The position numbers were made by a program, and so were the translations under genes. The notes under the pieces were generated by a model. It did not search any database, was not told where the DNA came from, and worked only from the letters and a program-made list of their open reading frames with translations. 37,353 bases of DNA from Ignavibacteriota bacterium (GTDB taxonomy: Bacteria; Bacteroidota; Ignavibacteria; UBA10030): the NCBI GenBank assembly GCA_003142475.1, contig PLMK01000033.1:1380-38732 (forward strand), in the 5' to 3' direction. Positions within the stretch are counted from its first letter, which is position 1. Each line of letters begins with the position of its first letter. Positions 30,654 to 31,122 of the stretch are shown here, one piece after another.

Positions 30654-30682
30654 TTGACAATATCAAAGCCATGTATTATACT
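30654..30682 (+). promoter_or_regulatory. Sigma-70-type promoter of the metY-cysK leader
   Basis: TTGACA (30654-30659) and TATACT (30677-30682) are 17 bases apart. Transcription should start near 30689, about 430 bases before metY and about 31 bases before the leader ORF. Confidence 0.85.
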
Positions 30683-30720
30683 AAAGTTAAGACGGAGCAA
30701 TAAAGCTAAAAGAAAAACCG

Positions 30721-30885
30721 ATGAAAAACTCAAATTCAACTTCTTCGATTATTTTTATCAAAGCATCATTAGCCCAGACGTTCAAAAGAACAACACTCGG
30801 GTGTTGTTGCTGTTGTTGTAGTTGCTTATTGCAACTCCACGCAACGACGTTGGATAACGGTAATTCATCGGCCTGTTCACTGTAA
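30721..30885 (+). CDS. Poly-cysteine leader peptide of the sulfur operon
   Basis: A 54-codon frame from the ATG at 30721. Codons at 30802-30819 are six consecutive Cys codons (TGT TGT TGC TGT TGT TGT), followed by Ser and a seventh Cys at 30823; one more Cys codon is at 30874. It lies between a consensus promoter and the structured, terminator-bearing leader of two sulfur-assimilation genes. Ribosome stalling at tandem codons of the regulated amino acid is the classic logic of attenuators such as trp and his, and poly-Cys short ORFs that respond to cysteine are known from mycobacteria. No good Shine-Dalgarno is seen; a GGAG lies 23 bases before the ATG. The peptide itself is unlikely to have a function. 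Confidence 0.7.
   Translation: MKNSNSTSSIIFIKASLAQTFKRTTLGCCCCCCSCLLQLHATTLDNGNSSACSL
30789..30808 (+). promoter_or_regulatory. Hairpin over the first Cys codons
   Basis: AACAACAC (30789-30796) and GTGTTGTT (30801-30808) pair over eight bases around a TCGG tetraloop. Translating ribosomes would melt it. A second small stem, AGTTGC/GCAACT (30820-30825, 30831-30836), follows directly. Confidence 0.55.
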
Positions 30886-30892
30886 TATAAAA

Positions 30893-30994
30893 CGCATCAT
30901 TTCAGAGATAAGGTCGAGGGTTCAAACCTGATGACACCTGATCCTCAATCGCACGTTGCGGTTGAGGGAAGACTGAGATGAGGCGATTTTTTTT
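30893..30994 (+). ncRNA. Three-way-junction leader RNA, S-box-like, with oligo-U end
   Basis: P1 pairs 30893-30905 with 30973-30985 (13 positions, one mismatch and one wobble) and is followed by eight U (30987-30994). P2 pairs AGGT (30911-30914) with ACCT (30936-30939) and contains GAGGG and GATGA elements arranged as in the kink-turn of SAM-I riboswitches. P3 pairs 30943-30953 with 30957-30967 over eleven bases. UUC (30921-30923) can pair with GAA (30968-30970) as a pseudoknot. The S-box core GCAACC/GGUGC and helix P4 are missing. It may be a variant riboswitch or only a part of the attenuator. Confidence 0.5.
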
Positions 30995-31000
30995 AATTTA

Positions 31001-31032
31001 CCTCTTCTGGAAATTCCCGGAAGGGGTTTTTT
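31001..31032 (+). terminator. Intrinsic terminator in the metY leader
   Basis: CCTCTTCTGG (31001-31010) and CCGGAAGGGG (31017-31026) pair over ten positions, two of them G-U, with loop AAATTC and six U after it. Its 5' arm can instead pair with AGATGAGG (30976-30983), the 3' strand of P1, with one U-U mismatch. This is the antiterminator arrangement expected of a transcriptional switch. Confidence 0.8.
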
Positions 31033-31122
31033 CGTTTATAGCCCTCTCTTCTCTCAATCTGAGGTGAAATTAATTAACACTATAAAACAATAATCATACA
31101 CAATAAACAGAAAGGTTATACA

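Follow-up and report, generated by a model that had tools for sequence, protein, structure and literature searches.

A probable tRNA-Cys-sensing transcription attenuator preceding metY-cysK in Ignavibacteria

Introduction

Classical transcription attenuators, known in Proteobacteria from the trp, his, leu, thr, phe and ilv systems, combine a run of codons for the pathway product with 1:2 and 2:3 pairings and a terminator, and are off by default.

Codon-run leader peptides have been placed in Proteobacteria, Actinobacteria and, newly in 2010, Firmicutes, according to the accessible part of PMC2965389. In a survey of Chlorobiales and Bacteroidaceae, the searchable attenuator motifs named in the available portion of the source are those for His, Leu, Thr and Trp, with others mentioned for Ile/Val and Phe (PMC3766115). 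As regards cysteine, uORFC-8-2, located before cysS in Rhodobacterales, has a tandem pair of Cys codons together with an intrinsic terminator, and ribosome stalling has been proposed for it (PMC8632094, in part). Mycobacterial poly-Cys leaderless small ORFs have been tested and were Cys-responsive, with control described as translational (Canestrari 2020, as cited in the accessible parts of PMC13236596 and PMC9031893), and mycobacterial uORFs were presented as the first candidates for Cys-directed attenuation by Shell 2015 (PMC4633059, in part). In Actinobacteria, Cys leader peptides were predicted with no conserved terminator hairpin, as far as the available text of PMC1262725 extends. A literature search covering titles and the beginnings of abstracts, with most subscription journals outside its coverage, returned no report of attenuation in Ignavibacteria, Bacteroidetes or Chlorobi, or in connection with cysK. 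The initial annotation of the locus described here, which knew of poly-Cys attenuators in mycobacteria and of none in this phylum, agrees with that limited search as far as the phylum is concerned; Cys-codon leaders with a terminator have, however, been proposed outside mycobacteria (PMC8632094, in part).

The locus lies in a stretch of 37,353 nucleotides from an Ignavibacteriota bacterium (GenBank assembly GCA_003142475.1, contig PLMK01000033.1, positions 1,380 to 38,732, forward strand), referred to below as the window. Like the classical attenuators, its metY-cysK leader has a codon-run ORF, predicted 1:2, 2:3 and terminator pairings and a predicted default-off state; unlike them, it concerns cysteine, occurs in Ignavibacteria, has an antiterminator that would span a three-way junction and is followed by two terminator-like hairpins. 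With uORFC-8-2 it shares Cys codons in a uORF, an intrinsic terminator and proposed stalling at the Cys codons, but that system has two Cys codons as opposed to six or seven in ten here, precedes a Cys-tRNA synthetase gene and not biosynthesis genes, and is found in Alphaproteobacteria (PMC8632094, in part). As in mycobacteria, where the attenuation is Cys-responsive, a run of Cys codons precedes sulfur genes. The mycobacterial small ORFs are described in the available sources as leaderless and without a terminator hairpin, whereas a predicted 5' UTR and two terminator-like hairpins are present here and, judging from its sequence, the leader is not of the mycobacterial leaderless kind. The principle is textbook, and its use for cysteine in Ignavibacteria looks new.

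Results and Discussion

Organization of the leader in the window

The features of the locus are collected in Table 1. The promoter, the 54-codon ORF with its Cys run and the two hairpins with oligo-U tracts (terminator 1, T1, with U8 and terminator 2, T2, with U6) were all recovered where the initial annotation had placed them. The promoter is the sole site with 11/12 consensus matches within positions 30000-34000, six other sites scoring 9/12, while the total of seven promoter-like sites in that interval is not above chance (mean 7.7). From the transcript start predicted on this basis to the AUG, the 5' UTR would measure about 30 bases. The Cys run reads Cys-Cys-Cys-Cys-Cys-Cys-Ser-Cys, and the ORF stop codon lies at 30883. 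Elsewhere in the window genome the Cys-codon pattern was matched once, antisense to a long Gln-rich frame.

Table 1. Predicted and annotated features of the metY-cysK leader and operon (window coordinates)
Feature	Positions	Strand	Basis
Sigma-70-like promoter TTGACA-17-TATACT (predicted)	30654..30682	+	11/12 consensus
Leader peptide ORF, 54 codons, ATG start	30721..30885	+	present in 5 genomes
Cys codon run = strand 1, Cys at 7/8 codons	30802..30825	+	read from sequence
1:2 hairpin, Cys codons with strand 2 (anti-antiterminator)	30812..30848	+	minimum-energy folds
Strand 2 (CGCAACGAYRTYGGATNNNGGTNNTTCATCG throughout the five leaders), 5' strand of the antiterminator	30840..30873	+	conservation, pairing scan
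P1 5' strand of terminator 1	30893..30905	+	folding
Antiterminator 3' strand: P2 region, P3 5' arm, P3 loop, first part of 3' arm	30911..30960	+	
P2 arm of terminator 1	30913..30935	+	folding
P3 hairpin of terminator 1	30942..30968	+	folding
P1 3' strand and U8 tract of terminator 1	30973..30994	+	sequence, folding
Terminator 2, 11-bp stem, U6 (predicted)	31000..31032	+	sequence, folding
metY, O-acetylhomoserine/O-acetylserine sulfhydrylase family, no Cys residue	31123..32436	+	TIGR01326, 679.8 bits (cut-off 495.1)
cysK, cysteine synthase A, no Cys residue	32494..33408	+	TIGR01139, 385.8 bits (cut-off 350.95)

The RNA from 30689 to 31030 folds at -112.3 kcal/mol, compared with -78.2 kcal/mol for shuffled sequences (z -6.7; 0/100 shuffles as stable). 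T1 is a three-way junction at 30893-30985 followed by the U8 tract at 30987-30994, and the region 30880-31000 alone folds at -40.9 kcal/mol (z -4.8; 0/200 shuffles as stable). By its sequence, an intrinsic terminator appears to lie between the ORF and metY. A small hairpin was also seen at the predicted 5' end of the transcript (30696-30707).

Conservation of the leader among relatives

MetY was sought in 61 genomes, 30 of which were positive at E 1e-60 or better, giving 38 matches, 30 of them with loci. An in-frame run of six to seven Cys within ten codons was found in the 700 bases upstream of metY at 5 of the 30 loci, the screen covering only 34 such bases at L017. The window genome's leader (L002) and L003, L004 and L030 come from one genus, and L005 comes from a sister genus of the same family, so that the comparison comprises five sequences, four of them from one genus. 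Lists marked "respectively" below follow the order L002, L003, L004, L005, L030. Two other metY loci reach four Cys codons in ten, outside any such ORF. By genome, the leader is present in four of the six members of the genus (G000, G003, G004 and G005); the MetY matches of the remaining two (G001 and G002) sit behind SAM-I riboswitches. The leader precedes metY in every instance and cysK follows metY in all four cases with room for it, the L030 contig ending inside metY.

The leader peptides read MKNSNSTSSIIFIKASLAQTFKRTTLGCCCCCCSCLLQLHATTLDNGNSSACSL, the most distant being MKNTLSLMQTSKPFAGMAESCCCRCCCCRTHVRATMSDNGCSSASLL (L005) and MMKNTIPTYKIITALMMHVDCCCCCCSQLRATTLDLGNSST (L030). Absence of the Cys run from close relatives would have spoken against attenuation, and the run is kept in frame in all five leaders, with mixed TGT/TGC codons and with AGT or CGY interruptions in four of them. 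The flanks have diverged, as the initial annotation had suggested checking: the N-terminal nucleotides are 51-81% identical to those of the window leader (51-57% in L004, L005 and L030). The 34 bases after the run, though coding, are 85-97% identical to the window in the four relatives.

Promoter-like hexamers spaced by 16-17 bp occur at the matching place in all five leaders, as judged by eye and with no mapped transcription start. The small hairpin at the 5' end, likewise compared by eye, has a stronger form, GGAGC/GCUCC, in L003 and L004 and a different one, GAGC/GCUC, in L030; none was seen in L005. Downstream, the T1 U tract measures 8, 8, 7, 0 and 4 residues, respectively; by eye, L003 and L004 have a similar P2 sequence, L005 a changed one and L030 none. 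In P3, the 3' arm, for which the attenuator model provides two partners, is 80-100% identical to the window and the 5' arm 73-82%.

The pattern of the 34 bases was recovered in 5/32 genomes of the family and in 3/395 genomes of the phylum, the latter being two known leaders and a match with three mismatches (L039) that is taken, from its sequence, as chance. It occurred at three loci of an 84,980-species collection, from which the window's own or near-identical records may be absent, and a search of viral contigs for the element gave no match. The poly-Cys run pattern alone was matched in 69 of the 90 genomes of the order. Among the 30 of these loci that were screened, three were known leaders and the others lay antisense to, or inside, other open frames; no further short Cys-run ORF before a sulfur gene was found among them. 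One screened locus (L052) has no long frame opposite and, by eye, looks antisense to a secretion tail with a Gln run.

Alternative pairings of the strand following the Cys run

The initial annotation had singled out CGCAACG (30840-30846) as complementary to CGTTGCG (30954-30960) inside stem P3. The two are exact complements, but CGTTGCG consists of the P3 loop and the first four bases of the 3' arm, and the match forms one end of a longer antiterminator of about 34 bases. In an anchored scan of 1410 pairs of scanning windows in each of the five leaders, in which strand 2 and its surroundings were set against the P3, P1 3' and T2 zones, the best pair joined the P3 loop and 3' arm to the stretch that begins two bases upstream of CGCAACG, so that the complement noted initially is the best conserved one within the scan. 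Its mean energy was -12.1 kcal/mol and its worst leader reached -11.7 kcal/mol, compared with a mean of -3.4 (SD 2.1) kcal/mol for the scan overall. Within the scanned zones, the conserved complementarity of strand 2 is thus to P3 of T1 and not to T2. Taken alone, the pairing of a strand 2 16-mer with P3 fails to stand out clearly from chance in some leaders (56, 21, 25, 170 and 2 of 500 shuffles were as good). The best P3-binding segment of the ORF overlaps strand 2 in four of the five leaders, the exception being L004.

When the 7-base pairing was enforced and the RNA refolded, strand 2 gained further pairs in the same register, with bases of the P2 region and of the P3 5' arm. The extended duplex, calculated between the 34-base strand 2 and the strand from the stop codon to CGTTGCG, reached -24.9, -26.1, -26.6, -27.7 and -27.6 kcal/mol, respectively. 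It was matched by a shuffled downstream strand in 7, 8, 3, 19 and 8 of 1000 cases and by a shuffled strand 2 in 4, 6, 2, 41 and 0 of 1000, respectively. L005 and L030 retain this strength despite stop-to-P3 strands only 49% and 42% identical to that of the window. The 3' half of strand 2 pairs weakly with the part before P3 (80, 115, 25, 60 and 376 of 1000 shuffles as good), and the leader's own downstream strand is the best partner of strand 2 in only two of five cases (L004 and L030), cross-combinations giving -19.0 to -30.1 kcal/mol.

Covariation was also considered. A hand-chosen 7-bp helix, UCAUCGG/CYGAUGA, is paired in 34 of 35 cells; one position is G-C in four leaders and A-U in L030, and another is G-C in four and G-U in L002. 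Of the compensatory changes that had been suggested as a check, this manually selected helix shows one among five sequences, the double change from G-C to A-U. In the 1:2 stem, one U-A to C-G double change was seen, in L004, among the three leaders tabulated. Strand 1 pairs with strand 2 in the unmasked full-length model of all five leaders and, by computation, the antiterminator and the P1-P2-P3 terminator are mutually exclusive. The earlier proposal, in which the strand after the Cys run is freed to act in antitermination, was retained in refined form, with that strand extended to 34 bases and with the Cys codons themselves as its pairing partner.

Stepwise folding and energy balance

RNAs of growing length were folded with everything before strand 2 masked, mimicking a ribosome on the Cys run, in what is a quasi-equilibrium calculation and not a kinetic one. 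With the RNA ending two bases past CGUUGCG, the expected number of strand 2 pairs was 25.0, 24.0, 22.3, 27.6 and 25.2, respectively, and P3 was absent from all five masked RNAs, compared with 5.3, 4.7, 3.6, 0.6 and 0.1 P3 pairs, respectively, when unmasked. Four bases later, P3 accounted for 8.8, 7.1, 4.2, 7.2 and 4.7 pairs in unmasked RNA and 6.7, 0.0, 0.0, 0.4 and 0.0 pairs in masked RNA, respectively. With the Cys run unmasked, P3 has formed in three of the five leaders at the first step and in all five at the second. Based on these counts, masking has a clear effect only at the first step in L002, only at the second in L005 and L030, and at both in L003 and L004. For the window's own sequence the advantage is brief, since by the second step P3 already has 6.7 pairs with masking (8.8 without), and in L005 and L030 unmasked RNA also forms the antiterminator at the first step, the two states separating only four bases later. 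The pair number observed in this model was reached by a shuffled strand 2 in 0, 1, 2, 0 and 5 of 200 cases and by a shuffled downstream strand in 1, 2, 1, 1 and 4 of 200. Taken by itself, the 7-bp helix involving the P3 3' arm does not exceed chance in L005 (68/200 shuffles equal or better).

Once P3 is complete, the enforced antiterminator falls behind the free ensemble by 4.5, 0.9, 0.1, 6.8 and 0.1 kcal/mol, respectively, and once T1 is complete by 11.2, 4.0, 1.5, 11.5 and 7.0 kcal/mol, respectively. As the free ensemble wins at full T1 length, a switch at T1 would have to be kinetic, and a kinetic decision is what is accepted for classical attenuators.

Terminator 2

T2 is 92-97% identical to the window in the four other leaders, and a terminator-like hairpin is kept in all five. 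Of four genomes searched for its pattern (G005 being outside the search), three gave a single match each; the window's own T2 misses the pattern, having a loop one base shorter. In the model, T2 still forms in all five leaders with the antiterminator enforced. One candidate for an anti-T2 hairpin pairs GAGAUGAGG of the P1 3' strand with CCUCUUC of the T2 5' arm at -5.3 to -8.7 kcal/mol; T2 itself has -15.3 to -21.6 kcal/mol and wins in all five leaders when both folds are offered, and the candidate was rejected as too weak, by energy, to outcompete T2. No pairing able to outcompete T2 was found in the five leaders by energy folding and enforced refolding. T2 may be leaky, may be opened by something outside the model or may be the main control point.

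Proposed mechanism and alternative explanations

Each of the sequence-level features of a classical attenuator that was tested was found for T1, and for T2 the calculated energies do not point to an antiterminator. Conservation across five leaders, antiterminator energies and masked folding, all of them computational, support the attenuation model of the initial annotation. Cysteine-sensing attenuation by one route or another is very likely, and the leader is probably a ribosome-mediated transcription attenuator of metY-cysK, sensing charged tRNA-Cys and working through T1. Confidence in the route through T1 is held back because the unmasked control fails to separate the two states at the first step in two leaders, and because strand 2 has no specific preference for its own partner.

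In the proposed mechanism, the Cys codons (strand 1) would pair with the 34 bases after them (strand 2) as the 1:2 hairpin, or strand 2 would engage the RNA stretching from P2 into the P3 loop and 3' arm, forming an antiterminator incompatible with P1-P2-P3. When charged Cys-tRNA is scarce, the ribosome would stall on the Cys run and cover strand 1, leaving strand 2 free to take the nascent P2/P3 strand before P1 is completed; T1 would then fail and metY-cysK would be read. When charged Cys-tRNA is ample, the ribosome would reach the stop codon and depart, allowing 1:2 to re-form and P3 and P1 to close, and transcription would end either at the T1 U8 tract or at T2. Since 1:2 also forms without translation, the default state is predicted to be off. 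For passing T2 in the on state, the pairing of GAGAUGAGG with CCUCUUC would be a weak candidate. Extending it, a two-stage relay can be imagined in which strand 2 unwinds P1-P2-P3 and the freed GAGAUGAGG holds the T2 5' arm, so that both terminators open in turn, with the first stage in L005, which lacks a U tract, acting only as a guard of T2; we consider such a relay rather unlikely. If true, it would, together with the SAM-I-controlled paralogue described below, present a duplicated sulfhydrylase with one copy under a SAM riboswitch and the other under a tRNA-Cys attenuator.

Cysteine could also be sensed without a T1 antiterminator, with ribosome stalling or release acting at T2, through Rho or on metY translation. 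The retention of T2 in all five leaders, whereas the T1 U tract is missing in L005 and reduced to four Us in L030, would suit such a route, as would the 92-97% identity of T2, its single occurrence in three of the four genomes searched and the translational control described for mycobacterial poly-Cys leaders (as cited in the accessible parts of PMC9031893 and PMC13236596). It is nevertheless an improbable reading, given that the complementarity of strand 2 in the scanned zones goes to P3 of T1 and not to T2 and that no pairing outcompeting T2 was found. That the Cys run is merely a TGT triplet repeat in an intergenic region has a negligible probability: the DNA is indeed triplet-like and similar runs lie antisense to Gln-rich genes, but chance is contradicted by conservation, the Cys codons being kept in frame with mixed TGT/TGC and interruptions, and, apart from the known leaders, none of the 30 loci screened has a short Cys-run ORF preceding a sulfur gene.

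Two further readings, both very improbable, assign the function either to the RNA junction or to the peptide. A metabolite riboswitch, SAM-like or new, would have the P1-P2-P3 junction with its kink-turn-like P2 (by eye) as sensor and the ORF as incidental, in keeping with a stable three-way junction before a U tract and with metY being a common SAM-I target in this order. However, no Rfam family reached its gathering score in the window, L003, L004, L005 or L030, L005 has an altered P2 and L030 none, and the length of the T1 U tract ranges from 0 to 8 residues (by eye), in contrast to the retained Cys run and strand 2; the conserved Cys run would also be left unexplained. An Rfam scan of the leader at an open threshold gave L10_leader as its best match (22.8 bits against 44), with the paired part on T2, and riboswitch, T-box and SAM-clan readings were rejected on the Rfam results and the loss of P2 in L030. 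The ORF might instead encode a working Cys-rich small protein, with a metal or redox function, co-transcribed with metY-cysK, and a C-terminal HATxLDNGNSSA is present in three genomes and partially in the other two. Against this, conservation downstream of the Cys run extends to silent positions (by eye; 85-97%) and this segment matches an RNA partner strand, the N-terminal half is variable, and in L030 the peptide stops after SST, three codons short of that of the window.

A Cys-sensing leader with conserved antiterminator and terminator parts in Ignavibacteria, if real, would suggest that codon-run attenuation arises repeatedly and reaches cysteine biosynthesis itself.

The metY-cysK genes and the SAM-I-controlled paralogue

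The proposed role of the operon in making homocysteine and cysteine from sulfide was borne out by the assignment of both products above the family cut-offs (Table 1). The window genome has a second metY (L072 1261-3861, G000:C59), preceded by a SAM-I riboswitch (RF00162; 71 bits) and followed by an ORF named by eye as metA-like. SAM-I, which senses SAM and not Cys-tRNA, precedes this paralogue and 17 other metY loci and has no match in the Cys leader. The 31 metY loci examined (the 30 loci plus the paralogue, with seven further MetY matches outside the count) comprise 18 with a SAM-I riboswitch, 5 with a Cys leader, 8 with neither, one of these being cut off by a contig end, and none with both. 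Neither element was seen in the stretch covered at L006, L007, L012, L016, L026, L029 and L031. The two metY copies of the window genome seem to be split between SAM and Cys-tRNA control, and the pair, one copy with a SAM riboswitch and a metA-like gene and the other with a Cys leader and cysK, would represent a natural case of regulator exchange after duplication.

In a midpoint-rooted MetY tree, four of the Cys-leader proteins form one clade (support 100/99), with seven SAM-I proteins as the adjoining clade (100/98). The L030 MetY occupies a long separate branch and is 55% identical to that of the window. At this locus (L030/L042), the Cys leader stands before a divergent MetY on a contig that ends inside the gene, and gene replacement behind a kept leader is possible.

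Over the aligned parts, MetY is free of Cys in all five Cys-leader loci and CysK in all four; Cys-free MetY was found in 2 of the 18 SAM-I loci and in 3 of the 8 loci with neither element. Cys-free MetY and CysK would fit a starvation response, though this is suggestive only, as four of the five belong to one clade. Behind metY-cysK in one genome (L041 4592-7542, G009), small membrane-protein-like, thioredoxin-like and DsbD-like ORFs, named by eye, were observed.
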